DNA from: Argyresthia goedartella
Lineage: Eukaryota > Arthropoda > Insecta > Lepidoptera > Argyresthiidae
Assembly (NCBI GenBank): GCA_949825045.1
Contig: OX463808.1
Coordinates: forward strand, 32,735,674-32,799,673
Direction: 5' to 3'
DNA: 64,000 nt
This document shows, in pieces, positions 28,258 through 59,799 of this stretch (position 1 is its first letter; each line of letters opens with the position of its first letter). The translations under genes were made by a program, and so were the position numbers. The notes beneath the pieces are model-generated. The model searched no databases and was not told the origin of the DNA. It saw only the letters and a program-made list of their open reading frames with translations.

Positions 28258-28288
28258 GTCACCCGCCCGGACAGGCCCGAACCTGCCC

Positions 28289-29617: not shown

Positions 29618-29668
29618 CGCATGGTTTCATTCCCGTGGTGTCAGGACCTGTGTCCGCACCCGTTGCGC

Positions 29669-30475: not shown

Positions 30476-30524
30476 AAAACACTTGAGCTGAAATGTTACC
30501 GGGGTGATCCCTTTCTCTTTATTC

Positions 30525-31125
30525 TTTATTGCATAGATAATATAAAGTTACAGACAATTAAAAGTAATGTAATAAGCAAAGGCGAGCTTATCTCTAAAAA
30601 GAGATTTCTTCCAGCAAACCTAGGCAGGACAGGAGAGTTAATTATACAGGAAAGTCCTAGTTCGCAATAACACTATACATACGGACGCAAATTACTTTAA
30701 AAATATATATAAACTATACCAAATATAAAATAAAAAAATAAATATATATACTTCCACTACATAAAATACAATGTATAGCATGAACATACATAAACTATAA
30801 TAAATCATACATATACCTACATAAATATGGTACCATTTAGGGAAGAGAAAGGAAATGCACTTTCAATCTTTTCTTAAAAGTGAAAATTGAGGGACTTTCC
30901 CTAATAGCGCAGGGAAGTGCGTTCCACAATCGGATTGCCCTTAACCTAAACGAGTGTTCGTAAGCGACAGTGTTATGCCAAGGAGTTGAAAGGAGAGACA
31001 CCGTGTGGGATCTCGGATTGCTATCCCTGGGGAAAAGAAAGTCAAAACGTTGGCGTAGATATGTGGGGTATCGGGGATTTCGCAAAATATTGAACAGATA
31101 GGAGAGAATGTGCATGTCACGGCAT
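30525..31125 (-). mobile_element. 5'-truncated LINE (family B) inserted in the BEL/Pao polymerase
   Basis: The frame 31125-30837 encodes the C-terminal end of a Jockey/CR1-type reverse transcriptase (EHSFRLRAIRLWNALPCAIR). It is followed by a 3' UTR with the GGCGAGCTTATCTCTAAA box and an end read as CAATAAAGAATAAAGAG on the - strand. BEL coding sequence stops at DPNGW on one side and resumes at ITPVTF on the other. ATCC occurs at both junctions and may be a 4-bp target duplication. Confidence 0.8.
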
Positions 31126-31910
31126 CCACCCGTTTGGATCAAATGTCCTAGCCACCGTTGAAAGGACGTTCTGTTTCGTCCAGACCTTCGGGGAGTCCAA
31201 CTCGACCCGATACGAAAACATGTCTGACACCGGCTGGTACTGGACGCCTAATACCGACAACATATTCGGATTTTCCAGATTTTTGAAAATGTGGGGATCC
31301 TGCTGGTAGTCATCCGGAAGACCAGACAGTAACTCTGGAGAGTTCGACATCCATTTCCGGAGCTCGTAACCTCCACCCCGTAAGAGCTCAACTAGCTCGT
31401 CCCGTCGAGCGAGCGCCTCCTCTACGGAATCTGCACCGGTACAGATATCGTCCACGTAGAGATCCTGCGCCAGGATCGCTGCTCCTCTAGGGAAATTTAA
31501 CCGTTCTCGATCCGCTAACTCCCGCAGAGTGCGAATCGCCAAATAAGGACTAGACCGTAGCCCGTACGTGTTGGTGTTCAGCTCGTACACCTTGATGGGC
31601 TGATCTGGGCTCTCTCGCCACAGGATCAGCTGATACCGTCTATCGTCAGGGTGAATGACCGTCTGCCTAAACATCATCCGGTTCAACACTGGTTCAGGTT
31701 CATGCCGTTAGATGTTGATGCCAATCCATCGAACACTACCCGTATTCTGCCCTCAGGTGTCCTCAAGATCGCGTGATGAGGCAGGAAGCAGTGGTCTTCA
31801 CGCTTCCAGTCGATACCCGAAACCGACATGTGGCCGAGGGACTCGTATTCTCGCATGAAGTCGACGTACTTTTGCCGGAAAATCCCGTCACGCTTCATGC
31901 GTCGTTCCAT
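31117..31910 (-). pseudogene. BEL/Pao reverse transcriptase with internal deletion
   Basis: 31910-31683 holds the region before the active site (HHAILRTPEGRIRVVFDGLA) and ends at LNQC. 31689 onward resumes at MFRQTVIHPDDRRYQLILWR and contains the YVDD box (LYVDDICTG). Compared with the intact element at 42515-50152, about 38 residues between these points are missing, including the segment that carries the first catalytic Asp. The enzyme is therefore dead independently of the LINE insertion. Confidence 0.8.
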
Positions 31911-32653
31911 CGACAGAAGCCGCGTCTCGGCTGCATGGTGTGAACTGCCCAGCGGCGATCACTCCGGAATGGAAGACGAGTGAGAAATCTACCTGACCGA
32001 AGGCGACCAGTATTCTTCCGATAAAACTGTTCACACTCTTCTTCAACCGGGTCCAACCGGCGGACCGTAAGTGGTTCCTCCATCTCCCAAAACTTCTGTA
32101 TCACCTCCGAGAGTACAGAACCGAATAAGGGACTACTAGTCGCTAGGCGTGGGGCAGCCGACATGACCGGACCCATTACCGCATGGCCCAGTCTGGTGTT
32201 GACCGAAACCAGACCAGTCGACTGCAACACGTGGACACCTGGCACTAACAGGTATCCCAAGGCATCGACACCCAATAAAATGTCTACTGGGCCCGGAATA
32301 TCAAACTCCGGGTCAGCCAGTGACAACCCAGCGACCAACTGTCGCACCGAGGGCGACAACCGTACGTGAGGGTGTGAGCCCATCACATTAGGCATGACTA
32401 ATGCCGTGACCGTCAGTTTCACCGATGAATCCACCCGTGACGAGAGAGTAATCCGACATACTCCCTTAATGGAACCGACTTCCGTGTTCCCAATTCCCCG
32501 AATGGAATGTGGATACTCCCTTACCGAAATGCCCAACCGTCTTACAAGGTTGCACGAGACTAAGCACCCCTGGGCCCCCAAGTCCAATAGTGCTCGTGCC
32601 ACACATGATTTGCCGTCCGAACTCCACGCTATCACAGAGGCGGTGGGGAGCAT
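31895..32653 (-). pseudogene. BEL/Pao aspartic protease region
   Basis: This is the retropepsin-like region found in BEL elements (DUF1758 type). ARALLDLGAQGCLVS is the active-site segment, followed by GLSLADPEFDIPGPVDILLG. The D-x-G motif has Leu in the middle; BEL proteases vary at this place (the second element has D-Q-G). The frame continues into the start of the polymerase (QFYRKNTGRLRSGRFLTRLP). Confidence 0.75.
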
Positions 32654-32698
32654 GACCGTCTGTGGAGTGGCGGCACCCTGTAAGTGGGCGGCGTGTCC

Positions 32699-34465
32699 CT
32701 AGCGGGAACCTCCGCGGGATCCGAACCCGCTGAGACCTCCGTCGGCCTCGGAGTAACTCGGCTGCTGATATGCAACCGGCATATCAGACCGTATGTGCAT
32801 CAAGGGGTCCCAACCCGTATAATTGGCCCCTCGCTGTCCCTGCATCCGACCATACCGGACGGTGTACGGTGTGCCCGGTGCGCACCGTGGATGAATAGGG
32901 GAGAGCTGATCCAACCTGGGGCGCTCTAGGAATGGGGGCGACATCCGAATGTTCGCCTCCCTGTTCGCCTCCCAGAGCGACGGGCAGGGTGGCGCAGAAG
33001 GTGGTGGACTCCCAGCCTTCACGCTACTCATAGGTGCCATCTGACACCCGCCCGTAACACGCGGTGAGCCAGCGGCCCGAAGTCCTCGCTGACCGTGGAC
33101 AGCGGCGACCGAACCCCGGCTATCCCGCATGTTACCCCCCGCGCTGCACCCTTCCCCTCGGGGGGGGTCCCGTCCGCGGGTACCCCAGTCACCCCGTTGG
33201 TGACTCCCGTTGCCCGGAGGGGGACTGGGTCCAGCCCTGGTTGGGCCCTGTGGCCGACCAACCTGAGCCCGGCCCTGGTGACCATCCGAAGGGCCTGACC
33301 GATTCAGGCACAACACTATGTGATGCTTGCCACCACAGCACTCACAGGGGGTGGCGCGCGAGCACTCGCTCAGCGTGTGCGGCCCCAAACAACCGAAACA
33401 CAATCGGTGGCGGAAGACTATCTTCCTGCGGGCAGCCACCCCGAGCGCCTTAAATTTGGCGCAACTGGTCACTTCATGACCGGCACTGTCGCAGTGCACA
33501 CAGCCGTCACCCGACGGCGCGGCATTCAAAACGCCAAATTGTTTCGACCTCCCTCCCCCCCGTGGGGGCGGGGGGCGCGGCCCCTCCCGCATCGGCGCGG
33601 GTCGGCGCTGCACACTGGCCTCCGTGTCCAGTGTGTCACATCGCCTACATTCACCATCCAAAAAATCCGTCAATTGGACGAGCGTGGGCAGTTCCGTGCT
33701 ACTGCCCCCAGCTGTTCAAACCGACTTTGTACAGCTGCAGGCAACCGTGACAAAACCATATGTAAAATAATGTATGACCATTGGTCTACCGGAAGACCAA
33801 GGTTCTGAAGGGCCTTAGTGGCCACCAGCACAGGGTTGAGCACCTGTACTCGGATGTCAACATCCCGGGCTAGGGATGCTAAACAGCTTCTCCAGCTGCG
33901 CATCAACCAACCGCCGTTTGTGTTGGTAGCGGTCAAACAATATGGACCTTGCTATCTCATAATTGCCCGCCGTGACCGTTAGGTGACCGACCAACTCCCT
34001 CGGTTCACCCCGCAGAGCCATCAATAGTTGGGCCAACTTGTAGGCGTTGTCCAGGTCGTCCCGACCGTGGACCAAACTATCAAATAAATTGATGAAGGCT
34101 GGCCACTCATCAATTGCCCCACTGAAGGCCGGAATCTCCAGGTGTGGCAGCCGTCCAACAACACCCTTGGGGGGTGGGTCTCCGTTACCCTCCCCACGGT
34201 CATTCCTTCGCGACCGCTTAATTTTCTCCGCGCGACGCTCGATGTCACTCAAGCATTCCATCGCTTGGTCAGCATCCGCGCAGAGCTGTTTCACTGCAGC
34301 CAGCGAGGCTTCATCAGTTAGCCCGAGAGCTTCAGCCTCCGCAGCCAGCCGACACACCTTCCCGACGCGTATCATTGCGTCCTCCACAAGCTTGAGCACG
34401 ACATCATCCATGTCCGGTCGCTCCACATACTTATGAGTATGGGCGAACCATCTCCCGGACACCAT
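32699..34465 (-). pseudogene. BEL/Pao gag, frame-shifted
   Basis: 34465-33857 carries the capsid-like region (LEIPAFSGAIDEWPAFINLF; NYEIARSILFDRYQHKRRLV), DUF1759 in BEL gags. The frame shifts near 33880 and 33670. 33673-32699 then carries three nucleic-acid-binding knuckles (CVHCDSAGHEVTSC, CFGCLGPHTLSEC, CECCGGKHHIVLC) and a Gly/Pro-rich tail. The region is GC-rich, which creates many spurious + strand frames. Confidence 0.8.
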
Positions 34466-34485
34466 GCCGCAGTACCGTCAAGGGT

Positions 34486-35299
34486 GAAGGTGCCATGTTG
34501 ACCGATTTAATATAGTCTAACTGAAACCGAACTAAGTATAGCCAGAGACCAGCACTTGCCCGTCAGCGCTGGGCACAGAAATTAAAACTAAGTTGTCAAA
34601 ACTAAGGCAACCACTAAAACAATTAAATCCTAAAAAATATTTAATATGGTCGCCCTGTGGACATACACCTTGTAACTATACACTCTAAATCAATTAGAGA
34701 ATGCCACCATAAAGCACAATACAAAATAACACACAAAAATGTATTATAAAAAAAAACTATTTTTAATATAGTGTAGGTAGCCGTGAACCTTCTAGAAGTG
34801 GCCTTTCCGAGTTGACCTGCACTTCTACTGAGGTCAGCAAAATCAGCTTAATACCCCTTAAATAGCCTGACCCTGCTCTGTAAATCGAAATAACACTGCA
34901 ATACTATAGGACCCGACTGCAATACTATAGTCCGACCGAATGACTGTTCCTTATGCACACCGAGTAGTTTCCGACTACAATTTTATAATAATTGTTAACT
35001 AAATCGTCAATTATACGTTCACTAACCGAAAATGAACCTAAATTGTGGTATACCGACCACAAGACTCACTCACAAAATGATTGCCGACCAATCTGAGGTA
35101 CCCACCCTCTCCCAGCTACAATGTGGCAAAAAAACAACCCTACAACCGTCCGTGAATCGATTTCCTACTAGGAAACCACGCTCTGCTACCAAACTGATAA
35201 ATTCCACGACTTAACCGACAGGGCGTGGAATCTTGGTAGGGTTGTTTTTCAGTGGAATGTCAAAAGTAGTACTGACCTTGACGCCGTAGACCGGCATTC
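34486..35299 (-). other. BEL/Pao 5' leader
   Basis: Non-coding leader between the 5' LTR and gag. It contains inverted repeats at 35130-35143/35236-35249 (AAAAACAACCCTAC) and 35201-35208/35224-35231 (ATTCCACG), which could fold the leader RNA. No primer-binding site could be assigned with confidence. Confidence 0.6.
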
Positions 35300-35737
35300 G
35301 AAAGCTCAATTCGAGGCAGGAATACGGGATGAGGATCACCAGGGTGGGGGGTGAGGGGAATCGAATCTTACTCTCGTCGCAGCCCGCTGCTGTCGCCGTT
35401 GAACGCGACGAATTGATCACCGAATCACTTCAACCTTTCACAGCACGAAGCACTCACTCCGATGACGTGAAATCTACTTATTTCCCGACGATTGTTCCGT
35501 GATTATTACAATTAACATTCCGACCAGGCCCCGATACCTGTGTTAGACAATTATTACAAATAACATACAGCCAAGGCCCGAATGCCTGACGCCGACATTT
35601 TACCATGTGCCAAAGTTAACCTCTAACTCGTCATTTCGTTTCTATGCAAGTGACAGCTAGCTAGTTCCGTTCCGATCACTCGCGGTCCGTTCGCGCAACA
35701 AAAAAAAAGGTGCGTTCCGAAGCATAAATATTAAACA
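35300..35737 (-). repeat. BEL/Pao 5' LTR
   Basis: Matches 27790-28257 over its length except for a 31-bp deletion at about 35399 and scattered substitutions. On the - strand it starts TGTTTAATATT at 35737. Confidence 0.85.
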
Positions 35738-41661: not shown

Positions 41662-41991
41662 CGCTGCCATCGGATACCCGAGGCAGACGTGCTAAAGCGC
41701 CAGCGAGCGCTTGGGCCCGCGCGACAACCGACTCCTTATGCGATTCTGAGTGGAAAGAAGTACCAACCGTAAATACCACGTTATCGTTTTCCGCTAAAAT
41801 CTTGTATAATTTTTTTAACCCTAAATTGAACTGAAGGATTTTACATCCCACCAGATTTTCAACCTTAAGGCTTGGTAATAAATGCGAAAACCAATTAAAA
41901 ACTCTGTAAGCTCATGCCCAATAAAGGTTTAACACAAGTTTCATAAAAAATATTAGTCAGGCGTTATATGTATGCGAAATGGATATCACAT

Positions 41992-42246
41992 TGTACGGCT
42001 TCGGGCCGTGCACTCTTGATATTGATTGATATGATAAATGATAGAATCGATATGTTTAAAAGTCTTGTATTGATTAAGAACAATTAGTTAACACACGAAT
42101 AATTATGATAGAATGATATTGATATGAGCCACACGGTGTGCTTGCTGTCCGTACGTGAACTGGTAATAATGATTGATAGGTAAAGCAGGCAACCCGTGTG
42201 ACCTCAATTACTTACAACTAATGCTACGGTGGCAGTACACCGTACA
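41992..42246 (-). repeat. BEL/Pao 3' LTR
   Basis: The + strand copy runs from TGTACGGCTTCGGGCC to GTACACCGTACA. It carries TG/CA ends and is preceded by the target duplication CACAT. Confidence 0.95.
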
Positions 42247-42514
42247 TGCTCCCGAGGGCAGAAAAGGAATAATAACACTTCAAAGAAAATTACTCGATTA
42301 CTACTCTAAAAATGATATAATGCTAATGTTCCTATAATACCTATTAGCTTGATGTAGGTATGCAACTTGATATAAAGCTTGCTAAGAAATGATTTTATAT
42401 TAGGTACAAACTAAGTTCATTTAAAACTAATCTCTACCTAAACATGAAATGTAAACTTATGTAAAATTATGATATAAAAACAATTTAACCAATGCTGGGT
42501 AGATACTTATACTA

Positions 42515-45500
42515 CTAAAGTCTCATTGATAATGATTTTTTATAAGATCTAGTGAAAGTCGGTGACGACGCTTTGTCTGTTTTACTAGCACTCATTGGTT
42601 TTTTAACACAACTTTTCATCTCAATTTGCTCACTGATTTGTTTCTTAATATGCCTATCGGACTCATTAACACTGACACTCGCGCACTTTTCACACACACT
42701 GCTCACACTGCTGGGCCCCGGGGCGGGGCGGGTGGCGGGGGCGGCGGACTGAGCACCGAGTCGAGACTCGGGCGCCGCCGCCTCCTCTGCGCCTGCGCGA
42801 GGTCCTTGCCGGGGCCGACGTCGCTGCTGCTGCAGTCGTCTCCAACACAGCACTGCTACTACAGCGCATACGATACACACCAACACATAAATTGCTATAT
42901 AGTGGTGTACTTCATGATAAGAAATTCTGCTTGATAGTTCTGAGTTATCCTTTATCATCTTGATATTGTCTTTAATATCCTGTAACTCCTGAATCGGTCG
43001 GCTATCCTCTGTTTCTTCTGCACTTAAATGGGTTGATATTGGTACGTTGATAATGTTGTTAATGGGTGATATTTGTGGGATCAACAAATTTACTTCAGCG
43101 TCTAATCTGCTGTAGTCCTGCTTATGGCCATGTAAAATGACCTCATTGGTTTTGATTATGCATCCTTGATCAATGCTAATGATCCCAGTAGCTGTCAGCT
43201 GTTGCGCAGACACTTGATCGCCGCACATGACTCTCAGCTGACATATATCACAGCAGAAATAAAGGTACTGATTCAGCTTATTCATTTCGACCCACTTATT
43301 AGAGCACGGGCTTGAAACGGTTTGACATGAATTTGAGAGCTGCTCTGCTACGCATAAATCTTGATCTTTATTCATTTGGCGAATCGGCTTCCTGCTCCGA
43401 CATAAATAGGTATCTCTAAATGCTTGATGTAGACATTCCTTGACATCTACTTCCGAGATTGATAAGTAGGCGTCTTTCTTTAAATTAATTGCTAGGTATT
43501 CTGATATTGGTATGACGTTGACCATTTGTTGTTTAATTTTCTGTGGGACTGATATGCTTTTGAATATTTCGTAGGTATCTCTGTTTAGTAATGGGATTTT
43601 TATTTCCATTATGAGATACTTTTCCATCATTTTGGTTTTGACTGAGAGAAGCTGATATATTTGTCTCAAGTCTTGATTCTCTCCAGCGGGCAACGTCATG
43701 TCTGATGATAAGTGGCCAGATATAATTGTCAACTGTTGATGAAGATGATCTGGCGGCAATAGATGAATGATAGTTTTCCCCTTGTAAACATTTGTGGTAA
43801 TGTCCAACAATTGTTCTTGAATGGCTTTTAGATTTGATAAGAAGTGGTTTGCTATAGAGAGCGATAGCCATAGCTCTTGGCTTCGCTCGACATTTTGGAG
43901 TTCTATATCCATTTTGCCTAATTTATTATTGATTTGATTTAAATGCTTATTGATCTGCTTGTGTTGCTTCTCCATTACTTGTCCTAAGCGACTCAAAACG
44001 CTATATTCTGCTTCGATAACCGATGTTTGATTCTTCCACATTGCTAATAAATGATTTTGATTATTTCGAATTAATTCTATGTCTTGCTGATATTGTTGGG
44101 CGAACCGGTCATCCAATACTCCGAACAGTGTATTTGTTAGATACCCGACACCATTGATAAGCCCGCGTCGCTGTCTAGGTAGCGACGCGCGCGTGCCGGC
44201 GCCGCCGGAGTGCTGCGTCAGGAGAAGTTCATTGTAGTATTGCAGTTCGGAGAATCCGTGTAGTAGTTGGAGTATTACTACGTCATAGCGGGAATCCCTG
44301 TCTGCTTGATATAGTGCACATGCTTGCTTCAAATGATCTTGGTAGGCACTCAATGCTTTAATGCCTTCCCAATACGGTTGTAAATCGTAGTACATGATGA
44401 TTTTCCAGTCTTCTGTAATAAGTTGCATGTTCGAAACCTTGTCCAAATAAAGTCCTTGTTGATTTCTTAATTTGGTGACATTAGTCATGCACTGTGAACT
44501 TGATATCAGTGTCATAAACGTCATTAATGCCATTGCCAATGAAACGAAACTATACCCCTTTTGTTGCTTGATAGGTTTGTTTTGAAATGTGACACAGTTG
44601 GTTGTTTCGTTGATGGTGGTGGGTTGCGATACTTGATTTGATTCGCTACCATCAGAGTCTTTGCCTGTTGGCAGTACCGACAACTTGATAATCGGCCGCT
44701 TCATGTACCCATTCTTGGTTTTTAACGTGACGACTCTCACCAACGAATCCTTTCCACTATGTAACTCGACGACGCGCCCCATAGCCCACTTTCCGGTAGG
44801 TACATTGTCGTCGTGAATCAACACCACATCGCCGATCTTGATGTTGGCTTGTGGGTTCATCCATTTGCTTCTTGCAGACAACTGCGCAAGATATTCGCTC
44901 TTCCAACGCTTCCACAGATCTTGGAATACCTTTTGTGCTAGTTGCCATCTTGTCCGTTTATCTCGCTCTGTTTCAAATATTGATAATGTTGGCCCACCAG
45001 TTAGGAAATGTGCCGGGGTCAAATATTCAAGGTCGTCCGGATTTTCTGATAATGGACATAGAGGCCTTGAATTTAAGCACGCCTCCACTTCTGCTAGTAC
45101 CGTTGATAATTCTTCATAGGTCAAAACTTGCTCTCCTATGACTCTTCTTAAATGATGTTTGAGGCTTTTCACTCCAGCCTCCATTAGACCGTTTGCTGAT
45201 GGCCATGCAGGAGCAGTAAAATGCCATTGAATCTCCATTTCAGTGACTTCCTTAAAAAAATCTTGATTATATATCTGCTTTAACTCCTCATATTCTTGCT
45301 GGAGGATTCTGTTGCTATGAGTGAAGTTGGTCCCGTTGTCGCTGTATAAGTGGGATACTTTTCCTCTGCGCGCCGTCAGTCTTTTCAGGGCTGCCAGGAA
45401 TGCTGATGCAGTCAGGTCGGATACCAATTCCAAATGAACGGCCTTGGTTGCCATACATACGAATACTGCAACGTATCCTTTCGTTGTCCTGATCGATCGG

Positions 45501-48500
45501 GCAGTGCTAGATCGCACTTTTATATGACCTGTATAGTCCACGCCTGTGTGTTCGAAAGGTCGTGATGGGTTGCACCTTGCTTGTGGCAGATCCCCCATCA
45601 TTTGATGCTGCTTGCTAGGTGCGTGTCTTCGGCACTTAACGCACAGTCGAATCCATTTTTTCGTAGTCCTGATTCCACTGACAATCCAATATCGTTGCCT
45701 GATGAAACTCAAAGTTAGTCGCGCTCCTCCATGATAAGTGAGTTTATGTGCTTGATCTATTAATAACTCAGTGAAGCGGCTATCTTTAGGTATGACAATC
45801 GGATATTTCATGTCGTCACTGATCGATGCATTTCGCAATCGTCCGCCGACGCGAAGCACGCCGTTGCTATCCAAAAATGGATTCAAACTGTTGAGCCTGC
45901 TTTTTGCGGATACGTGTTGATTTTGCTGCAATTCATTTATTTCTGCTCCGAATTCTTTTTGCTGTGTATATTTTATAATAAATGTTCTTGCTTTATTTAA
46001 TTCCGCGACAGTTAGGTATGATTTTGTTGGACTTTGATGCTTGCTATTTGATATGAACCGTAATACCCATGCTAGTACATTTACGACTTTTGTAAGCGAG
46101 CTGTAAGAGATCAACAGGTAGTTGATGACGTCACAATCTTGCTGAGTGACTGCATTCACCTGATGCTGTGTCGCCGGACTCTTGATTTCTTCCTGTGTCT
46201 CGTAAACTGGTTGCTCCTGTTTCTCTGCTTGATAGTTTACTAGCCACGCCGGTCCATTCCACCACAGGGAATGCTCATTTAGTTGTGTGGCGGTTACACC
46301 TCTACTGGCGCAATCTGCTGGGTTTTCGGCTGATTTGACGTAACGCCAGCACGCTGCAGGCATTACTTTGATTATTTGCTTCGTCCTGTTTGCGACAAAT
46401 GATTTCCATCGCCCTGGGTCACCCTTGATCCAACTCAGGGCTACCATTGAGTCGCTCCAGCCGAACGTCTTGATACTGTAACTTGATAGAGACTGCGTAA
46501 CTTTCTCCATTAGTCTTGATAGTAGATGTGCACTTAAAAGCTCTAGCCTTGGTAAGGACACATCTTTGCTCACTGGTACGAGCCTTGCTTTTCCGACCAC
46601 CAGCACGGTGGAACCTTGTTGCTCCCCGTTTCTCACGATTTTACAATAAATAACGCACGCATACGCCTTGATAGATGCGTCGCAGAATCCGTGTAATTGT
46701 ATTTCATCTTGCTCTTTTGTACCCAACCATCTGGCAAGTCTTACCTTGTCGATGTTATGGATATCTGATTTTATTTTGATCCACTCTGCTGTAATATCTT
46801 CCGGAAGTTTCTCGTCCCACTGGAGCTCCGATTTCCAAACAGATTGGAACAGGATTTTGAGTTTGGTTGATACCGGTGATAGCCAGCCCAAGGGGTCGAA
46901 TAACTTCGATATTTCCGACAGAAGAGTCCTTTTGGTATATTTTGCTGCTGATGATTCAATCTTTGATAAAAAGGTGAAATAATCTTCCTGAGGGTTCCAT
47001 GATAACCCCAAAGTCTTCGTTGATTCCGCCTGCTTGAAATCGAAGCTTTCATTGGAGCTAACATTTTTCAGGAGCTCTTTCGTGTTTGAGCTCCATTTCC
47101 TTAAATTGAATCCTGCGAACTGCAGTAGAGATATCAACTCCTTCTGTAGATCCTGTGCTGCTGCTACCGAGTGCGAGCCATGAATTAGGTCATCCATGTA
47201 GAAGTTTTCCTCGAGAACTTTTGCTGCTACACTCTCTGGTTTGCTCTCTTTCTGCTCGTGAGCTAAATGCTTTAGAGTCATCATGGCCAAAAATGGTGCT
47301 GCTTTTGTGCCATAAGTGACTGTGGATAGAGCGTATTCCTGTATGCTTGCTGACGGGGACTCTCTCCAAATGATCTTCTGATACTTTTGATCTTGCTCAT
47401 TGACCCAAATCTGACGGTACATTTTCTCAATGTCCGCGGTGTATGCAAACTCGTACTGACGCCACTTGATAATCAGTGCTTGCAAATCCTGCTGCAAATT
47501 TGGGCCCCTCTCCATCAAGTCATTCAAACTTTGACCCGATGACGTCTTCATACTTGCATTGAACACAACTCGTAATTTTGTAGTCGTCGAATCGGCTCGA
47601 GTTACATGATGGTGCGGTAGGTAATATTCCAATTTACCGCTACCTACTGCCGGCGTCATATGGCCTAGCGATAGGTATTCCGCAATAAATAATTTATAAT
47701 CTTTTGCTATATTTTGATTTCGGTCGAATTTGCGTTCGAGACTACGAAACTGGGCAATCGCTTTTGATTTTGATGAGCCTAGATTCTCTTCAAAGTTCGG
47801 TTTTAGGGGGAGCCGAACTTCATATTTTCCATCCTCCCGACGTGTGGTGGTAGACTTGTAGAAGTCGACGCACTGTTGATCACTTGATGATAAACTTGAT
47901 GGCTCTGTGATGTCTTCTACTTCCCAGAATCTCTGAATGTCCTCGATGTTATTTAGGACGACGTTACACTGGAACGTTTGGACGTTTCCGCATAAAATCC
48001 ACCCCAAGCGCGTCTGCTGAGCTATGGGCTGGCCTTGATCTGCTCGACATATACCTTCCATGATGATATGAGAGTATACGTCCGCCCCAAATAAAATATC
48101 CACCGGGCGACTAATGTGAAATTCCGGGTCTGCTAAACTGATGTTGTAGATATGTGACCACGCCGGCTTGTCGAATGTAAAACTAGGCAGATTGTTAATG
48201 AGAGTTTTCATAATGTAAACTTCCGAATTAAAAGTGTATTTGCTGTTGATGGCTTTGCATGCTATGCTCATCATCCCCTTACAGCTGCTTTCTTTGACTC
48301 CAACTCCTGATATCACCCCTTTGCATCTCTGACGTCGCAGGCCTAAACGTTGAGCTGCATTTTCCGTGATAAGGGATGTTTGTGAGCCCTGGTCGAGAAG
48401 GGCCCGCATGATATGATAGTTCCCGTCCGATCCTTGAATTTGTAACATCGCTGTGGTCAACAAGACTTCAGGAACTTCTCGTTGCAATGATACATGTGTG

Positions 48501-50152
48501 TTACTTCTCCCTTGCTGTGATTGATCATTCGTAGGGCCGGACGAGTTGTTATGGGCTTGCTTGAACGCTTCACAAAGAGTGCTATTATGAAACCCACGGC
48601 AAGTTTGGCATCGCTTTTCCGAGAAACATGTTTTACCTCCATGGTCATAAAGACAATTTTGGCATAAATGTAGTTTTTGTACCAAACTGCGTTTCTTTTG
48701 TGGCGTCAACTCTAAATAATTCTTACAAAAATAAATGCCATGTTCATTATTCTTGCAAAGTGGACATTTGAACTGTTCTAGATTATATTGAGAGCGCTGT
48801 TTCCCATGTTGCGAAACTGTAGGCACTCGACTACTGCTAAATGCTTGTTTGTTAACTCGATCGTATTTTTGATTGTGATATTTTGATGATGATTGATGTC
48901 CTTGATTATGAATTTGTTTCTGCGAAGGGTTTTCTTGCTTCCTTCGGGAGAATTCCAGGCTGGTGAACTTTCCTTCCAGGAACTCCAGAAACTCATTAAG
49001 TGATGGCAGCTCCCTTGGGGCCTTGATGTAATCGATGTAGTCATCATGCGTATCTGAGTCCAACTTTTCTGATAATATATAGACAAGTAATATGTCGTTG
49101 GCTATGTCACCACCCAGGTTTTTTACGGCATTTAGACACTCGACCGTTGTGTCGTGCATGCGTTTGATAGCATTGACTGAAGCTTGCTGTATGACTGGCA
49201 AACTCATTAAAATTTTGACATGAGAGTTGACAATTTTCTTTTTGTTATCATATCTTGCAGTCAAAATGTCCCAACAGGTTACATAATTTTTCGAGCTTAT
49301 CTGGAGATGTGAGACTAATCTCTCCGGCTCGTCTCTCAGCTTGCTCCTGAGATACTGCATCTTTTGTGCATTGCTAAGTGATGGATTATTATGTATCGCT
49401 TCCGAGAATAGATCCTTAAACGGTATCCATTGATTAAATTGGCCGTTGAATGTCGGGATGTCTATCTTCGGGGTTGATCGCTCGCGGTGCACCATTGACC
49501 ACAGTTTGCTATTGATTGCTCTTTTGATGTTATTGTAGATAGTTTCCGACTTCGTGAACGACCTCTCATAGTCTTGATCTATGCCCTCAAGTTCACTATC
49601 TAACTCCCAGTGAACTTTGTCGATAACTTTCCAACGCTCGCCGATGGTACTAAGCAGATCTTCTAACTCCCACTTTTCTGATACGGTCTCCAGATTGATG
49701 TTGGAGACAGTGCGCTGGAATGCTCGGAAGTTACTTGCTTGCTTCCGCAGCATCTCATCCGTCTTGCTGTTGCTTCCTGTTGATATCATCGGCTCGCCAA
49801 ATTGATCTTGGTTTTGCTCTCCCCCCGCCGCCGCTGGTGCAACTTGCTTCACCACGTCGGCTTGTAAATCTTGATAATTTTCCAAGATGTCCTTGATGCT
49901 TAAGTACTTTTGCCTGACTACCTCGTAGTAATTTTCTGAATAATATTGATGGGTTTTATCGGTTTCACCACAAAGAGTAATATGATTTACTTGGAATTCA
50001 TTCCAATAGTCAGATAAAGTGTTAACGCGCTTTTTTAAATAAGAAGAAGTTTTCCTATCGCGACCGTCCTTTTTGAAATTTTCGAGGAGCTTATCCATAG
50101 CTCTCTCTAATTCCTGCTGCTTGCTGATCAGATTCATGGTTTCTGCGTCCAT
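42515..50152 (-). CDS. Gag-protease-RT-RNaseH-integrase-envelope polyprotein
   Basis: One 2545-residue frame contains all functions of the element. Approximate residues: capsid-like DUF1759 228-375; three Cys/His knuckles 460-525 (CQNCLYDHGGKTC); protease 580-710 (ALLDQGSQTSLI); reverse transcriptase 850-1025 with TADIEKMYRQ and a YMDD box (FYMDDLIHG); RNase H about 1150-1290; integrase zinc domain 1466-1508 and core with VDYTGHI, YSDNGTNF and LMEAGVKSLK; envelope from about 1867. The envelope has a hydrophobic signal-like segment (1867-1889), a furin-type RQRR site near 1992 followed by a fusion-peptide-like stretch, and a membrane anchor (about 2418-2438). This arrangement resembles baculovirus F and errantivirus Env. 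No stop separates integrase from envelope. Confidence 0.92.
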   Translation of the reverse strand: MDAETMNLISKQQELERAMDKLLENFKKDGRDRKTSSYLKKRVNTLSDYWNEFQVNHITLCGETDKTHQYYSENYYEVVRQKYLSIKDILENYQDLQADVVKQVAPAAAGGEQNQDQFGEPMISTGSNSKTDEMLRKQASNFRAFQRTVSNINLETVSEKWELEDLLSTIGERWKVIDKVHWELDSELEGIDQDYERSFTKSETIYNNIKRAINSKLWSMVHRERSTPKIDIPTFNGQFNQWIPFKDLFSEAIHNNPSLSNAQKMQYLRSKLRDEPERLVSHLQISSKNYVTCWDILTARYDNKKKIVNSHVKILMSLPVIQQASVNAIKRMHDTTVECLNAVKNLGGDIANDILLVYILSEKLDSDTHDDYIDYIKAPRELPSLNEFLEFLEGKFTSLEFSRRKQENPSQKQIHNQGHQSSSKYHNQKYDRVNKQAFSSSRVPTVSQHGKQRSQYNLEQFKCPLCKNNEHGIYFCKNYLELTPQKKRSLVQKLHLCQNCLYDHGGKTCFSEKRCQTCRGFHNSTLCEAFKQAHNNSSGPTNDQSQQGRSNTHVSLQREVPEVLLTTAMLQIQGSDGNYHIMRALLDQGSQTSLITENAAQRLGLRRQRCKGVISGVGVKESSCKGMMSIACKAINSKYTFNSEVYIMKTLINNLPSFTFDKPAWSHIYNISLADPEFHISRPVDILFGADVYSHIIMEGICRADQGQPIAQQTRLGWILCGNVQTFQCNVVLNNIEDIQRFWEVEDITEPSSLSSSDQQCVDFYKSTTTRREDGKYEVRLPLKPNFEENLGSSKSKAIAQFRSLERKFDRNQNIAKDYKLFIAEYLSLGHMTPAVGSGKLEYYLPHHHVTRADSTTTKLRVVFNASMKTSSGQSLNDLMERGPNLQQDLQALIIKWRQYEFAYTADIEKMYRQIWVNEQDQKYQKIIWRESPSASIQEYALSTVTYGTKAAPFLAMMTLKHLAHEQKESKPESVAAKVLEENFYMDDLIHGSHSVAAAQDLQKELISLLQFAGFNLRKWSSNTKELLKNVSSNESFDFKQAESTKTLGLSWNPQEDYFTFLSKIESSAAKYTKRTLLSEISKLFDPLGWLSPVSTKLKILFQSVWKSELQWDEKLPEDITAEWIKIKSDIHNIDKVRLARWLGTKEQDEIQLHGFCDASIKAYACVIYCKIVRNGEQQGSTVLVVGKARLVPVSKDVSLPRLELLSAHLLSRLMEKVTQSLSSYSIKTFGWSDSMVALSWIKGDPGRWKSFVANRTKQIIKVMPAACWRYVKSAENPADCASRGVTATQLNEHSLWWNGPAWLVNYQAEKQEQPVYETQEEIKSPATQHQVNAVTQQDCDVINYLLISYSSLTKVVNVLAWVLRFISNSKHQSPTKSYLTVAELNKARTFIIKYTQQKEFGAEINELQQNQHVSAKSRLNSLNPFLDSNGVLRVGGRLRNASISDDMKYPIVIPKDSRFTELLIDQAHKLTYHGGARLTLSFIRQRYWIVSGIRTTKKWIRLCVKCRRHAPSKQHQMMGDLPQARCNPSRPFEHTGVDYTGHIKVRSSTARSIRTTKGYVAVFVCMATKAVHLELVSDLTASAFLAALKRLTARRGKVSHLYSDNGTNFTHSNRILQQEYEELKQIYNQDFFKEVTEMEIQWHFTAPAWPSANGLMEAGVKSLKHHLRRVIGEQVLTYEELSTVLAEVEACLNSRPLCPLSENPDDLEYLTPAHFLTGGPTLSIFETERDKRTRWQLAQKVFQDLWKRWKSEYLAQLSARSKWMNPQANIKIGDVVLIHDDNVPTGKWAMGRVVELHSGKDSLVRVVTLKTKNGYMKRPIIKLSVLPTGKDSDGSESNQVSQPTTINETTNCVTFQNKPIKQQKGYSFVSLAMALMTFMTLISSSQCMTNVTKLRNQQGLYLDKVSNMQLITEDWKIIMYYDLQPYWEGIKALSAYQDHLKQACALYQADRDSRYDVVILQLLHGFSELQYYNELLLTQHSGGAGTRASLPRQRRGLINGVGYLTNTLFGVLDDRFAQQYQQDIELIRNNQNHLLAMWKNQTSVIEAEYSVLSRLGQVMEKQHKQINKHLNQINNKLGKMDIELQNVERSQELWLSLSIANHFLSNLKAIQEQLLDITTNVYKGKTIIHLLPPDHLHQQLTIISGHLSSDMTLPAGENQDLRQIYQLLSVKTKMMEKYLIMEIKIPLLNRDTYEIFKSISVPQKIKQQMVNVIPISEYLAINLKKDAYLSISEVDVKECLHQAFRDTYLCRSRKPIRQMNKDQDLCVAEQLSNSCQTVSSPCSNKWVEMNKLNQYLYFCCDICQLRVMCGDQVSAQQLTATGIISIDQGCIIKTNEVILHGHKQDYSRLDAEVNLLIPQISPINNIINVPISTHLSAEETEDSRPIQELQDIKDNIKMIKDNSELSSRISYHEVHHYIAIYVLVCIVCAVVAVLCWRRLQQQRRRPRQGPRAGAEEAAAPESRLGAQSAAPATRPAPGPSSVSSVCEKCASVSVNESDRHIKKQISEQIEMKSCVKKPMSASKTDKASSPTFTRSYKKSLSMRL

Positions 50153-50623
50153 GCTGCTTGATAATAAGAGTTAAAATTGGAAATCTCTCACTTGATCAGA
50201 CGAGATAAGATGAAACGATAATCCTGTTATCTTCGCTCCTCGTCTGCTGCTCCTTGATTGAGTAGCTGGAACGGGCGCCTTGCTGCCTCCGCTCCCTGAT
50301 AGCGGCAGCTCCTTGATTGAGCCGGGCCGTTGAAGATGCTGATGTGCCGGAATGAGAATCTACTGATCCTCGCCCCACTGACAGTAGCTCCTTGCTTGAG
50401 CTAGCCCGTCGCACTTGATTGCTATTGATTATACGATTCGATTCCTTGCTTGAATCGAACGCGCACTGATAGTTTAATAATCCTTGATAGTCACTTGATT
50501 CTGATCCGTCCACGCACAATCACTATTCGTATTCACAAATATGACGTACGCTTTTACACGCCGGAGGTCCAAAGTATGTCAAATGTTCCACGCGACGCGA
50601 CGGTTTCGAAGGACCAAAAAAGA
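50153..50623 (-). promoter_or_regulatory. BEL/Pao leader with repeated motif and candidate primer-binding site
   Basis: The leader lies between the 5' LTR and the polyprotein start. Read on the - strand, variants of TCAATCAAGGAG/TCAAGCAAGGA occur at least four times (about 50252, 50307, 50387 and 50441 on the + strand). GGTTTCGAAGGACCA at 50602-50616, read on the - strand as TGGTCC..., starts eight bases inside the LTR and is the candidate tRNA primer site. The matching tRNA was not determined. Confidence 0.5.
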
Positions 50624-50878
50624 TTTACGGCTTCGGGCCGTGCACTCTTGATATTGATTGATATGATAAATGATAGAATCGATATGTTTAAAAGTCTTGT
50701 ATTGATTAAGAACAATTAGTTAACACACGAATAATTATGATAGAATGATATTGATATGAGCCACACGGTGTGCTTGCTGTCCGTACGTGAACTGGTAATA
50801 ATGATTGATAGGTAAAGCAGGCAACCCGTGTGACCTCAATTACTTACAACTAATGCTACGGTGGCAGTACACCGTACA
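50624..50878 (-). repeat. BEL/Pao 5' LTR
   Basis: Identical by eye to 41992-42246 apart from TT in place of TG at its inner edge, and followed by the target duplication CACAT at 50879-50883. Confidence 0.95.
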
Positions 50879-51004
50879 CACATGTTAGATAGACGTAAAG
50901 AAAAACGTTTTGTAAAATTTTCATGCACTTCAGTAAATGATTTATGTTTACGAATGTAATGGTAATTTATTGGTTTCGTGTGTTTTTAAATAACGACTTG
51001 TAAT

Positions 51005-55607: not shown

Positions 55608-58517
55608 TCATACATGTTCAGTTTGATTTTCAGAACAATTTGAAAGACACTCCAAAGTTAAACTTTTGAAGCGTTTAAGAGATTCACTAAATATATCTAT
55701 ATTTACTAACTTATCATTGTACAACCTGCAAGCACGTCTTATGGAACTATTTCCAGCGTAATTTGTGCGACTACGGGGTATAACAAAGAGAGGCTTGCTT
55801 CGACAACTACGCTCACGACGACGAGGCACTCTAAACGACAATAAATGTAACAATGGGGGGGAATCGATTATATTATTAATTATTTTAAAAATTATTGATA
55901 TATCAATACAGTCACGACGACAACTTAATGAGTACATTTTTGCCTTTTTCAAGGACGTCACATAATCCGAATATGTGTTTCCAGTACGATATTCAAGGGC
56001 TCGAATAAAATTTTTCTGCACCCTTTCTATCCCGTCTATATGAATGTTATAAAATGGGTTCCAAACAGCACTGGCGAACTCGAGATGACTGCGAACATAA
56101 CTATTAAACAGTACCTTGTAAGTTAAGGCTTTTTTGAAGGGCTTTCCTACGCGGAGTATAAAACCAAGTTGTTTAAGAGCTTTATTTATAATGTGGTTCA
56201 CATGAGGTACGAAAGTGAGCTTGGAATCCATTATTGCGCCTAGATCACGAATTTGATCTACGCGGGCTAATTCTCTTTGACAAAGTTCATATTTATAATT
56301 AATGGTTTGTATTTTTCTACTGAAACTTATTACAAAGCACTTATCTGGATTTAAAAATAAGTTGTTTGAATTACAGAAAGATTCGAAATTATTAATGCCA
56401 TTTTGCAGGACATCACAATCTCCCACACTTCGGATAACCCTAAATATTTTTGTATCGTCGGCATATAAGAGTAAAATAGAGCTGTTTGTAATTTCTATGA
56501 CGTCGTTTAGGTAAAGAACGAACAACAAAGGTCCTAAATGTGACCCTTGAGGGACACCCGAAGTGATGGGTTTGAGATTTGAAGTGTACCCACCTACTGC
56601 TACAGCCTGCGATCGATTTTCGATGTAGGATTTTATCCATCGAAATAGATCCCCGTGTATACCCATCTGCCAAAGTTTCAAGAGCAAGCGTTCATGACAA
56701 ATTTTATCGAATGCTTTAGCAAAATCAGTATACACGGCATCCACTTGATAATTTTTGTCCAAGGCTTCAAGTATAATTTCTGTATAGGATAAGATATTTG
56801 TTTCAACACTTCGACCTTTAAGAAAACCGTGTTGATGAACAGTAACATGACGGCGTACAGCGGCAGACAATTGGTCAGTAACAATCTTCTCCAAAATTTT
56901 GCCAAATTGACATAGTTTAGAAATTGGCCGATATTTCTCAATGTCACAGCTGATATCTCCCTTAGGTATCGGTGTAATTAGAGCACGGTTCCAAATAGAG
57001 GGAACACAACCTTCGCGAAGTGATTTTTCAAAAAGCAAAGTGATTGGAATTGATAACTCAGACGCACATTTGTTAATAATAACAGGATGAATGCAATCTT
57101 TTCCGGCACCTTTATTTACGTTAATAGACTTAAGGTATTTATGAACAAGGTCTTTAGTTAAACATATTGTATCCATCTCAAAAACTGTATTATGTACCGG
57201 CGGAAGATTGTTCAAATCAATCATGTTATTACTAGGTTTTTCAAAAACAGAGTGGAAATGTTCATTAAACATGTCACAAATCTGAGAACCAGTTGAAGCT
57301 GAAATACCTTTATAGTACATTATTTGTGGTAGACCACTCTTCGCGTAGATTGACTTCATGTAAGACCAGAAAAATTTCGGGTTTGATGTGATTTTATTTT
57401 CAGTTGAGTTTATAAAATTTCTATAGCATATAGGTTCCAATTTATCAACTCTTTTCCTTAGACACCTAAAACTGTCACGATCTAAAGGATTTCCGTATGT
57501 CTTCCATAGTTTGTGGTACTTTCTTTTTTCATTTAATAACCTTCTAAGTGGCTTTGTGTGCCAAGGAGGCCTATTAATGGAAGTGCGTAGAGGACGCTTT
57601 GGGACATGCGCGTCTATTAAACGATTTAGTATTGTATATAAAATTAATGTACACTCCTCCAAAGACTGACCTGAAAATTGTGCAAACCAGTCTATTTCAG
57701 ATAGTTCGCGATTAATTTCATCAAAATTAGAGTTAAAAAAGCAATATCTAACAGTAGGAGCGGGCTTAAGAGTAGGTGAGTAATCTAAACTTAACTCAAT
57801 TTCAACGGCTTTATGATGCCGGTCCTCTTTTATTAAAGGGTTTGGGCTACTAATAACGGCGCAATTTCTATTACTTAAAATAAGGTCTAATAACCGATGA
57901 TTTATATTAAAACTACTGTTAAATTGTTGTAACCCTGTAAAGCATAAAAACTCTTGCAATGGCTCCACTGTTGGTTCGGTACCATTATCAAGACACATAT
58001 GTCTACAACTCGAGTTCGACCACTCAGCATCTGATACGTTAAAATCTCCAGTAATAAGGAAAACATCGTCAGAATGTTCTGTTACAATCCGACTACAAAT
58101 CTCAAAAAAGTTAATTAATGCGCTTGTATATAAACGCCCTTGCGGAATGTAAACACAACAAATATGCAATGATTTATGCCTACTGTTATTAGATAACGGT
58201 ATTGATACCCAGACGCACTCGGAGGACGCGGCGGAGGGGCAGGGCCAGTCCCGGCGCACGGGCTGGTAATCACGGTGAACCGCCACCATAGCGCCGCCAC
58301 CTCGCTCCAAATCAGTCGCCTCAGCCGATCGATCGCAACGATAGACTAAATATCTACTGTCAAAGATTTCCCCGTCGTAGAAGTTTTTGTTTAGCCAGGA
58401 TTCCGTTATACAAATGAAATCATAATGAGACTGTGCTACCTGTGAATAAAATCTATGTGTTTTTGTACGAAGTCCGCATACGTTTTGGTAATAACCGCTT
58501 AGGGTAATGTTAGCCAT
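55608..58517 (-). CDS. LINE ORF2: APE endonuclease and reverse transcriptase
   Basis: An intact 969-residue frame. The N-terminal APE-type endonuclease shows YYQNVCGLRTKTHRFY, the Glu box ITESWLN, VYIPQGRLY and the Asp-Asn box ITGDFNVSDAEW. It nicks target DNA to prime reverse transcription. The reverse transcriptase follows with WNRALITPIPKGD, DFAKAFDKICHERLL (about residue 600), SGVPQGSHLGPLLF and YADDTKIF (about residue 683), then thumb motifs (IRDLGAIMDSKLTFVPHV). Its ATG overlaps a TAA stop (TAATG) of a 94-codon frame in the ORF1-ORF2 spacer. Confidence 0.93.
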   Translation of the reverse strand: MANITLSGYYQNVCGLRTKTHRFYSQVAQSHYDFICITESWLNKNFYDGEIFDSRYLVYRCDRSAEATDLERGGGAMVAVHRDYQPVRRDWPCPSAASSECVWVSIPLSNNSRHKSLHICCVYIPQGRLYTSALINFFEICSRIVTEHSDDVFLITGDFNVSDAEWSNSSCRHMCLDNGTEPTVEPLQEFLCFTGLQQFNSSFNINHRLLDLILSNRNCAVISSPNPLIKEDRHHKAVEIELSLDYSPTLKPAPTVRYCFFNSNFDEINRELSEIDWFAQFSGQSLEECTLILYTILNRLIDAHVPKRPLRTSINRPPWHTKPLRRLLNEKRKYHKLWKTYGNPLDRDSFRCLRKRVDKLEPICYRNFINSTENKITSNPKFFWSYMKSIYAKSGLPQIMYYKGISASTGSQICDMFNEHFHSVFEKPSNNMIDLNNLPPVHNTVFEMDTICLTKDLVHKYLKSINVNKGAGKDCIHPVIINKCASELSIPITLLFEKSLREGCVPSIWNRALITPIPKGDISCDIEKYRPISKLCQFGKILEKIVTDQLSAAVRRHVTVHQHGFLKGRSVETNILSYTEIILEALDKNYQVDAVYTDFAKAFDKICHERLLLKLWQMGIHGDLFRWIKSYIENRSQAVAVGGYTSNLKPITSGVPQGSHLGPLLFVLYLNDVIEITNSSILLLYADDTKIFRVIRSVGDCDVLQNGINNFESFCNSNNLFLNPDKCFVISFSRKIQTINYKYELCQRELARVDQIRDLGAIMDSKLTFVPHVNHIINKALKQLGFILRVGKPFKKALTYKVLFNSYVRSHLEFASAVWNPFYNIHIDGIERVQKNFIRALEYRTGNTYSDYVTSLKKAKMYSLSCRRDCIDISIIFKIINNIIDSPPLLHLLSFRVPRRRERSCRSKPLFVIPRSRTNYAGNSSIRRACRLYNDKLVNIDIFSESLKRFKSLTLECLSNCSENQTEHV

Positions 58518-58822: not shown

Positions 58823-59799
58823 TCACTTTATCTTGTCCAAATCGAGATTCTTGTTTATCAACGTAACCTTAGAAGTTTCCGTCTTTCTCGCGAGAATTTT
58901 GCAGTCTCGGACCCATAAATATGCGAGTTTTCCATCTTTTTTCAATTGGCGAGCACGTTTAAGCAGTAGCTTGGTGGTCGGTGTCAGATGCTCACCCAGA
59001 AACAGGTTAACAGCTGGACCGTCGAACCCTAAGGAAGCTGTTGTGATGCCCCTATGCGCCCGCACTGCTGATAGTAGTTCATCCTTGTATATGCGCCGAG
59101 TGAATTTTACTATGACGGCCGGAGTGTTAATTGTTGTGTTTTCGTCATTGTTGTTACCAACTCCAGTTACGTAACGACGTACCCGCTGTATGCAGTCAAT
59201 GGAATTTACGTCCATTGTAAGTCCAACGACAGTAAATATACTTTGAAGGATGCTTAATAAGTTTTCATTTTTTTTAATGGCAAGCCTGAAATCTCAACAT
59301 TATTCATCCTAGAATATTGCTCTCGTGTATCATTTTGTTGTTGAAGGGTAGATATTGTGTTCTTCGCAGTAGATAATTCGGACTGCAAGGTAGGTATTTC
59401 GTCACATACTTTCTCGAGCTTGATTAATCTATTCTCTAAGTCAGAGAAGCGGTTTTCCATTTCGGTAAATTTTGTATTTATATTATGAATACCTGTAGAA
59501 CATGATTGAATATCGGATTTCAGGCTATTTATGTCCGACTTCATTGAGGAAAAATCAGCTCGAAATTCTTTTATTTCTTTGAGGACGGCCGCAATACCTT
59601 CAGTCTCATTTAGGGATCCAGGAACAGTCAGATTAGGCAAGTTACGACAATTCGGACACCTCCATGCTGCTTTTCTGTCGGCGCCCATACGTCGGTATCC
59701 AGACTCCGTTACACCAGCACAGACATAGTGCAGAGACCTATGGCATCCATTACACACAACTGCATCAGGCACTTCATCATTACACATGCTACAAATCAT
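58823..59799 (-). CDS. LINE ORF1: PHD finger, coiled coil and FP-like domain, one frameshift
   Basis: The first part (59799-59254) starts MICSMCNDEVPDAVVCNGCH, a PHD-type Cys4-His-Cys3 finger ending at AAWRCPNC. A heptad-rich coiled coil follows (FSSMKSDINSLKSDIQS onward). A shift at a run of eight A (59268-59275 on the + strand as T) ends this frame at KKMKTY. The adjacent frame continues to 58823 with FLGEHLTPTTKLLLKRARQL and KLAYLWVRDCKILARKT, similar to the baculovirus FP/25K domain found in insect CR1-type ORF1 proteins. It is the RNA-binding chaperone of the element. Both parts are otherwise open, so the shift is either one recent indel or slippage. Confidence 0.85.

Follow-up and report, generated by a model that had tools for sequence, protein, structure and literature searches.

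By what means the Gag protein of a retroelement picks out its own RNA from host transcripts and from the RNAs of related elements is an old question, whose answer is usually sought in one structured signal in the leader. It is raised anew by a 64,000-nt stretch of Argyresthia goedartella DNA (contig OX463808.1), referred to here as the window, in which an env-bearing BEL/Pao element on the minus strand, the window element, carries a short word in large excess along its RNA. What could such words be for? We find a motif that codon choice does not account for and that recurs, with changes of letters, in sister families of the same genome. Judging from sequence, and with a probability of about 0.5, we read it as a dispersed linear RNA code that the element's own zinc-knuckle Gag would read for genome selection and condensation.

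A strand-specific motif independent of coding

An initial annotation had reported about 42 CTTGAT against one ATCAAG on the plus strand of the element, and recounting gave exactly 42 and 1 in 41992-50878; because the element lies on the minus strand, its RNA carries ATCAAG 42 times. This word is the commonest of the 3,215 distinct hexamers on the sense strand of the element, and the remainder of the window holds 12 CTTGAT and 13 ATCAAG. The accompanying excess of CTTGCT was borne out, with 29 occurrences instead of the estimated 25 or so and no AGCAAG on the plus strand. The excess of ATCAAG stands as well; where about two had been expected, base composition gives 3.6, and dinucleotide-preserving shuffles (n = 300) give 6.4 ± 2.3 with a maximum of 14. 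The single reverse-complement hit is no depletion of the opposite strand, since shuffles expect 1.1-1.6. The hits are dispersed over frames and non-coding parts, as had been claimed (codon frames 11/14/6, long terminal repeats (LTRs) 2, leader 7, 3′ part 2). The other BEL/Pao element in the window (27790-35700) does lack the excess, with ATCAAG once in sense and twice in antisense (0.13 and 0.25 per kb). That second element has broken frames and, at its ends, long repeats that are 98-100% identical, and Baculo_F was not found in the four that were scanned of its five longer open reading frames (ORFs).

Real as the excess is, ATCAAG only marks the high point of a wider motif built on a tetramer, A[TG]CA(A)(G). 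The sense strand has 178 ATCA against 50 expected from composition, 133 AGCA (44 expected), 100 ATCAA (16.5 expected; 6 in antisense) and 111 CAAG (44 expected; 12 in antisense), and A[UG]CA[AG] occurs on average once per 39 nt. The 12 one-base neighbors of ATCA stand at 0.5-1.3 times the composition expectation, except AGCA at 3.0, and those of AGCA likewise at 0.5-1.3, T and G both being favored at position 2. ATCAAG itself reaches 11.8 times its expectation; its neighbors stay at 0-2.7 times unless they have G at position 2 (9.1) or differ at position 6, where all bases do well (3.7-6.0). An A[U/G]CA core is therefore followed by A and, by preference, by G. This sharpness suggests a protein site, and the keto edge shared by U and G would fit reading by a protein rather than base pairing. 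Regular spacing is absent (gap coefficient of variation 1.08 vs. 0.98 ± 0.07). Word density is roughly even through the ORF and peaks in the leader, which holds 10 of the 69 AKCAAG in 471 of 8,632 nt (5.5% of the length; p = 0.004), the words filling the remainder too.

The idea that the words merely follow from composition, codon usage or the encoded protein deserves hardly any credence. The sense strand is indeed A-rich (33%), and the protein is richer in Gln (6.8% vs. 5.7% in 80 relatives) and Ser (9.0% vs. 7.7%), raising the expectation for ATCAAG in the ORF to 12-17. Even so, the ORF contains 31, against 12.4 (maximum 22) in 500 synonymous-codon shuffles and 16.7 (maximum 25) in 200 that additionally preserve dinucleotides at codon borders; A[GT]CA[AG] occurs 189 times, against 101.6 ± 7.7 and 130.3 ± 6.7 in the same two sets, and A[GT]CA 252 times, against 150.4 in the synonymous one (z 11.1). 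The observed counts lie above all 500 and 200 shuffles, outside the codon-preserving range with which comparison had been proposed. Moreover, leaders show the excess without any coding, and A[GT]CA has z values of only −0.4 in a LINE ORF of the window and −0.5 and 0.4 in env-less BEL families. For the window element, the two codon-preserving shuffles and the leader refute composition or codon usage as the source.

The choice of codons also depends on their neighbors. Ile is written ATC in 42 of 71 cases before A vs. 20 of 91 otherwise, Ser is TCA in 50 of 97 after A vs. 21 of 133 and AGC in 29 of 80 before A vs. 18 of 150, and Ala is GCA in 43 of 67 after A vs. 30 of 79. Codons for N/D/H/Y end in T in 46 of 53 cases before CA vs. 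202 of 367 otherwise, those for K/E/Q end in G in 42 of 64 before CA vs. 168 of 452, and four-fold codons end in A in 25 of 44 before TCA or GCA vs. 264 of 704. All seven of these tests gave p < 0.05. Four of six control tests in the same ORF were null; Val GTC and Thr ACC before A were significant (p = 0.006 and 0.007), so a general preference for C before A is partly mixed in. None of the 7 motif tests was significant in the LINE ORF, nor any of 6 in the other BEL element, whose samples were small. At residues conserved in over 90% of the relatives (up to 80), motif codons are underrepresented (50/442 vs. 460/1,957, p = 3.5e-9), and they are not enriched at residues rare among relatives (34/442 vs. 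174/1,957); dipeptide tests on the proteins of relatives were too weak to infer the motif. Codon-preserving shuffles, neighbor-dependent codon choice and the leader all support an RNA-level motif, and the earlier statement that protein sequence alone fails to explain the hits is upheld.

Sister families and persistence of the words

Sister families were sought in the assembly of the window itself (1.109 Gb, 89 contigs); the reverse transcriptase (RT) piece of a relative served as query, and 150 rows were scored, sister families included. One copy per family was used for coding shuffles and leaders. Since the families share ancestry, neither the env link nor the clade pattern represents more than a few independent events. 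Relatives' DNA was not found in the searched collections of viral contigs and genome contigs.

Table 1. Motif in the window element, sister families and a LINE control. Density: A[GT]CA[AG] per kb in the RT-RNase H (RT-RH) piece, sense/antisense. Coding z: A[GT]CA, CAAG by synonymous shuffle; stricter z: shuffle also keeping codon-border dinucleotides. Leader counts: sense/antisense (11 families).
Family	RT-RH aa identity	Density	Coding z	Stricter z	Leader A[GT]CA	Leader CAAG	Other leader word
Window element		23.9/1.4	11.1, 3.8		21/2	12/0	
S1	58%	21.7/3.7	5.2, 3.8	3.5, 2.4	21/5	9/1	
S2	60%	28.2/3.3	9.1, 1.6	6.8, 0.4	17/0	3/2	
F56	60%	10.6/3.4	0.2, 4.6	−1.3, 2.4	18/2	25/1	
F64	55%	12.5/3.8	1.9, 4.8	2.2, 3.7	7/0	4/0	
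E3			0.8, 3.3		11/2	18/0	
F73			0.9, 0.2		5/1	3/0	CTAC 9/0
F66			−0.6, 2.6		4/3	0/3	AACT 9/1
F70			1.6, 0.3		4/2	1/2	AACT 9/0
N1 (env-less)			−0.5, 0.1		3/1	1/0	
N2 (env-less)			0.4, 0.8		6/4	3/2	
LINE ORF (control)			−0.4, −0.9				

In coding sequences, one family mainly uses A[UG]CA, three mainly use CAAG and two use both (Table 1). Within the S1 group, 29 of 30 loci have A[GT]CA[AG] at 14.9-21.8 per kb in sense and at most 3.7 in antisense. The initial annotation had pointed to the non-coding parts of sister elements as a place where the excess might be lost; it is kept there. In leader shuffles the smallest attainable p value, 0.002, is reached by the window element and F56 for both A[GT]CA and CAAG, by S1 and S2 for A[GT]CA, and by E3 for CAAG. 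In S1, the LTR and the 3′ part have A[GT]CA 6/1 and 7/0 (sense/antisense), and the env-side piece is weaker, at 50/20 in 2,514 nt. The downstream piece of the F56 copy (L077) shows the excess only in its last 600 nt; its integrase matches (43-49%) come without words and without an env match, which probably reflects a further BEL element in or next to that copy. The extension of the core differs too: A[GT]CA is followed by AG in 16 of 18 cases in the F56 leader vs. 1 of 17 in that of S2 (p = 6e-7), and in 15 of 31 vs. 18 of 151 in coding sequence (p = 1.6e-5).

A tree of 12 RT-RH rows unites the six A[GT]CA/CAAG families (support 96/97) and, in a second group, F73, F70, and F66 (98/94); N1, N2, and the other BEL element of the window fall outside. 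The case for words in the second clade, ACUAC/AACU in its leaders, is weaker: CTAC and AACT were selected after inspection, F73 and F70 did not reach p < 0.05 in all tests, and the coding z of ACTAC, 2.8 in F66 yet 2.9 in env-less N1, is weak, so this clade rests on its leaders. In coding sequence, the strand asymmetry of CTAC was given no weight, as its reverse complement GTAG contains a stop codon. Env matches were obtained for the window element (Baculo_F) and for S1, S2, and F64 (42, 42, and 37%), and an env fragment of E3 has 60% to a relative; F66 and F73 are probably env-bearing, to judge from open frames of 2479 and 2513 aa, and the frames of N1 and N2 (1742 and 1740 aa) would be too short for env. 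The motif is missing from these two env-less families, as from the other BEL element.

Have these words been kept, or merely inherited? At four-fold sites where the amino acid is shared, the window element has the third base of S1 in 40 of 132 cases (0.30; composition expects 0.25) and that of S2 in 44 of 138 (0.32; 0.27 expected). Words stand at the same aligned place in 17 of 94 cases for S1 (15.4 expected) and 33 of 94 for S2 (22.8 expected), the expectations coming from synonymous shuffles scaled to equal word number. As synonymous sites are saturated and each family still has its excess, most words were made or kept anew in each lineage. The excess thus appears to be actively kept across families, and we infer selection rather than biased mutation.

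Eight copies from an older subfamily (identity to the window element 92-93%) retain 92-101% of its word number; one has 157 words against 156 in the window element, with 120 shared, where random substitution gives 129 ± 6. Such substitution of the window element leaves fewer words in seven of the eight comparisons (L068 lies within 2 s.d.), the eight copies spanning the same region and not being independent. Among 199 fixed differences over 4,014 positions, 22 words are exclusive to the older group and 20 to the window element; random placement of the differences on the window element expects 6.7 and 24.9. By comparison, the 333 private substitutions in single old copies removed 44 words while creating 13, a ratio close to that expected at random (24.9 to 6.7), so host mutation does not make the words. 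As a sign of maintenance, the balance between the subfamilies is only suggestive. Setting 22/20 against the 44 losses and 13 gains is no proof of an upheld number, because decay on both branches from a denser ancestor also balances; the case for maintenance is built on the saturated synonymous sites.

Candidate readers of the words

The dispersed RNA motif that the initial annotation proposed is supported; the functions it listed (Gag binding, packaging, localization or a host factor) remain candidate readings. Because the letters change between families in one host and the words are absent from the env-less BEL families examined, an element-encoded reader is favored over one shared host factor. 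Gag and packaging are favored in view of the density in the leader, the unpaired sites, the absence from N1 and N2 and the conserved zinc knuckles. In predicted local folds, ATCAAG sites are unpaired at 0.618 vs. 0.476 for words of the same composition (p = 4e-4) and AGCAAG sites at 0.537 vs. 0.445 (p = 0.09), and sites are more unpaired than with shuffled flanks (0.656 vs. 0.571, p = 0.004; 70/71 sites). This predicted tendency fits loops as well as linkers, and folding of the whole RNA is not unusual (mean window z −0.45 over 44 windows, one at −4.2). At least two knuckle patterns were found in 80 of 81 full-length sequences, and in an alignment of the window sequence with 11 relatives chosen from the list, 11 of the 12 ligands are invariant in all 12 sequences, the last being C in the window element and H in most others.

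Taken together, these data would be accommodated if the genomic RNA were a linear code made of an A[U/G]CA core and an AG extension, densest in the leader and mostly unpaired. The words would be low-affinity sites, read additively through the three zinc knuckles of the element's own Gag, which would thereby select, coat and condense its RNA amid host mRNAs and the RNAs of sister elements. Selection would then bear more on how many words there are than on where they lie, and the letters would co-evolve with the reader, giving each family its own variant. Gag as reader, and genome selection and condensation as function, are what the sequences lead us to infer. We are more tentative, and would stop short of even odds, about the wider proposition that env-bearing BEL elements of this genome write a family-specific self/non-self identity code across their RNA genomes, coding sequence included, read by a fast-evolving Gag and kept in number by selection. 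In that reading, the different letters of the sister families (A[UG]CA, CAAG and perhaps ACUAC/AACU) would let every capsid recognize the RNA of its own family.

Several observations weigh against a Gag-read code. The knuckle region has no relative in the PDB by sequence or by fold, its structure model is middling (mean pLDDT 77), and RNA binding by the knuckles is suggested by their cysteine pattern and their likeness to retroviral nucleocapsid (NC). By eye, the knuckles of five families (that of E3 excluded) show nothing that would explain CAAG in F56, F64, and E3 as against A[UG]CA in S2, and the CAAG families are not one group on the RT tree (E3 with F64, 90/94; S2 with F56, 86/86). The words run on through env, with no concentration in the region exclusive to unspliced RNA. 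Their unpairedness (0.656) barely differs from that of the motif at random positions of the element (0.613, p = 0.10), and one S1-group locus, L045, has no strand excess (12.6 vs. 10.3 per kb). Lastly, the env link is confounded with ancestry, the env-less families being outgroups too.

A host RNA-binding protein, such as a splicing or export factor of the SR or hnRNP type, might instead read the words and keep the long transcript unspliced, exported or localized, different families using different factors. We consider this unlikely, but it has several points in its favor: invariant letters combined with a U/G choice at a single position resemble a site recognized by a protein, ATCAA resembles what we take to be the core of the doublesex repeat element (dsxRE), and CAAG resembles the CAAGR of TRA-2-ISS (PMC4461909, in the passages accessible). 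Of the 111 CAAG in the window element, however, 60 precede A or G, which is the level of base composition, and different letters among families in one host are not what a single shared factor would lead one to expect. The splicing elements dsxRE, TRA-2-ISS, and RBP1 were rejected as candidates: the CAAGR preference is absent, the dsxRE consensus NMDNCRWNCWAYM and RBP1 type A (DCADCTTTA) have no match in the window element, and RBP1 type B (ATCYNNA) has 15 in sense and 15 in antisense. In a search of the literature, the papers listed for AUCAAG concerned SERPINA1/alpha1-antitrypsin, and none was listed for AUCAAA in connection with hnRNP G and RNA recognition motifs.

It is improbable that the words have no function and reflect context-dependent errors of each family's own reverse transcriptase. 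Such a bias would account for the strand bias, the presence in non-coding parts, the differences among families and the persistence over saturated sites, and as substitutions after insertion into the host do not make words, replication is left as their source. Nevertheless, the words differ from their neighbors at all four positions, and the 42 words found in one subfamily only differ at motif positions 1-4 in 7, 12, 10, and 13 cases, by transitions and transversions alike, and this weighs against a bias because one context-dependent error would hit one position. The avoidance of conserved residues by motif codons points the same way, though mutation bias with purifying selection predicts likewise. 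An action on host silencing or RNA decay (piRNA, small RNA or nuclease), as evasion or decoy and not in packaging, is in our judgment a poor candidate. The words are strand-specific and dispersed, and env-carrying gypsy and BEL/Pao elements of mosquitoes are described as piRNA targets in the accessible part of PMC13172572, but family-specific letters are hard to reconcile with a shared silencing machinery; as a weak further argument, no factor with such a preference was met in the accessible passages on insect endogenous retroviruses (ERVs).

The sequence itself offers candidate recognition words and suggests that their number counts over their place. The natural letter variants within one genome make the reader testable. 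If the reading is true, RNA recognition can shape codon choice over an entire polyprotein, with bearing on analyses of codon usage and selection of such elements.

Element anatomy and known systems

The element is a young, complete env-bearing BEL/Pao copy (Table 2), flanked by the 5-bp repeat CACAT (41987-41991 and 50879-50883), its two LTRs mismatching at 1 of 255 positions. One ORF between the LTRs carries DUF1759, Asp_protease (25.2 bits, slightly below the cut-off of 26), RVT_1, Peptidase_A17, Integrase_H2C2, and DUF5641 in a domain search, which makes it of the BEL type, and Baculo_F scores 108.9 bits against a cut-off of 24.1, so an env-like region is present; RNase H we presume to be placed within the same ORF. 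Named protein relatives are mostly from Lepidoptera, plus pseudoscorpion and spider entries, among the best 120 of 4,659 with E ≤ 0.001. The start of the putative primer-binding site (PBS), TGGTCCTTCGA, is common to all nine families checked in both word-bearing clades (the window element; L071-L074, L084-L086, and L089), and the env-less families have TGGTCCTTCAG (N2) and TGGGCCTTTAC (N1) at this position. A short AGATCTTTCC-like stretch lies near the 3′ end of the leader in S2 and F56, and in a looser form in the window element (50153-50623); in the latter and in S2 it comes after AAGTGAGA, which resembles a weak splice donor.

Table 2. Features of the window element and of the rest of the window.
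Feature	Position	Strand	Remarks
Env-bearing BEL/Pao element, motif along whole length	41992..50878	−	A[GT]CA[AG] 226 sense, 16 antisense
5′ LTR	50624..50878	−	255 nt
PBS-like TGGTCCTTCGAAACCG	50601..50616	−	putative role, from position after LTR
Non-coding leader	50153..50623	−	471 nt; ATCAAG 7, AGCAAG 3, A[GT]CA[AG] 20; densest stretch
Single ORF gag-pro-RT-IN-env	42515..50152	−	2545 aa; A[GT]CA 252, ATCAAG 31
DUF1759 (Gag part)	49019..49450	−	aa 235-378
Gag zinc-knuckle region, putative motif reader	48518..48790	−	C-X2-C-X4-H-X4-C once, C-X2-C-X3-H-X4-C twice
Reverse transcriptase (RVT_1)	47099..47515	−	aa 880-1018
Integrase zinc-binding domain	45617..45778	−	aa 1459-1512
Env, baculovirus F-protein-like (Baculo_F)	42899..44539	−	aa 1872-2418
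3′ non-coding part	42247..42514	−	268 nt; ATCAAG 2, AGCAAG 1, A[GT]CA 9
3′ LTR	41992..42246	−	255 nt; A[GT]CA 14, A[GT]CA[AG] 7, ATCAAG 1
Transposase fragment, presumably piggyBac-like	18757-19716		DDE_Tnp_1_7
LINE-type reverse transcriptase ORF	55608-58517		969 aa; control in codon tests
ORF with PHD finger, near LINE ORF	59254-59799		

An LTR search of the assembly gave 306 candidates, and all 40 that were scored were 100% identical; an open frame of 2551 aa occurs in 30 of the 150 scored RT rows, which were assigned to the window family by identity and frame length. The family has apparently undergone a very recent burst. Separately, BEL RT hits recur on one strand at a regular spacing of 3,813 nt in G000 contigs C58 and C71 (and C31:23414944-23426856). 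The copies number in the dozens, are almost identical and mostly have an open frame of 723 aa; a truncated BEL element is apparently arrayed there in tandem.

How does the motif compare with known means of RNA recognition? The clusters of short words with AUCAA or CAAG in dsxRE, TRA-2-ISS, and RBP1 elements (PMC4461909, accessible passages) look alike, but their consensus tests failed here. In the accessible passages of the insect ERV papers PMC13172572 and PMC12992720, a genome-wide excess of a word is not described, and a term search of the available text of the BEL/Pao survey PMC3118150 found no passage on one; nor was one evident in the titles and abstract openings of the other papers listed. 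Ty1 and Ty3 have an LTR-retrotransposon Gag, as does the window element, and the Ty3 Gag zinc finger is needed for RNA packaging, but a dispersed sequence code is not described in what is accessible of that source (PMC4974528). In retroviruses, NC sites include UCUG linkers in the leader of MoMuLV and exposed guanosines in HIV-1 (PMC7599994, in part); here too zinc knuckles read short exposed sequences and the leader is richest, such reading by the Gag of the window element being putative. Those retroviral sites lie in a structured leader, whereas the words of the window element span LTRs, ORF and 3′ end with a fixed A[UG]CA core. Semliki Forest virus packages selectively through many capsid sites and not through one signal, to which our proposal may be likened; about 20 capsid-binding sites chosen by crosslinking show weak UUG/UGG trends, and a genome-wide excess of one word, unlike in the window element, is not described in the accessible part of that report (PMC7499256). 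Icosahedral RNA viruses such as MS2 have dispersed stem-loop packaging signals with degenerate loop motifs (PMC6281560, in part). The likeness lies in many sites across the genome with a shared motif, read there by the self-encoded coat protein and here putatively by Gag; the window element differs in having linear words at about 25 per kb, in being reverse-transcribing, and in letters that differ among sister families. Dispersed packaging signals and the alphavirus capsid sites are, in our assessment, the nearest known kind, the former being stem-loops and the latter a score of sites.

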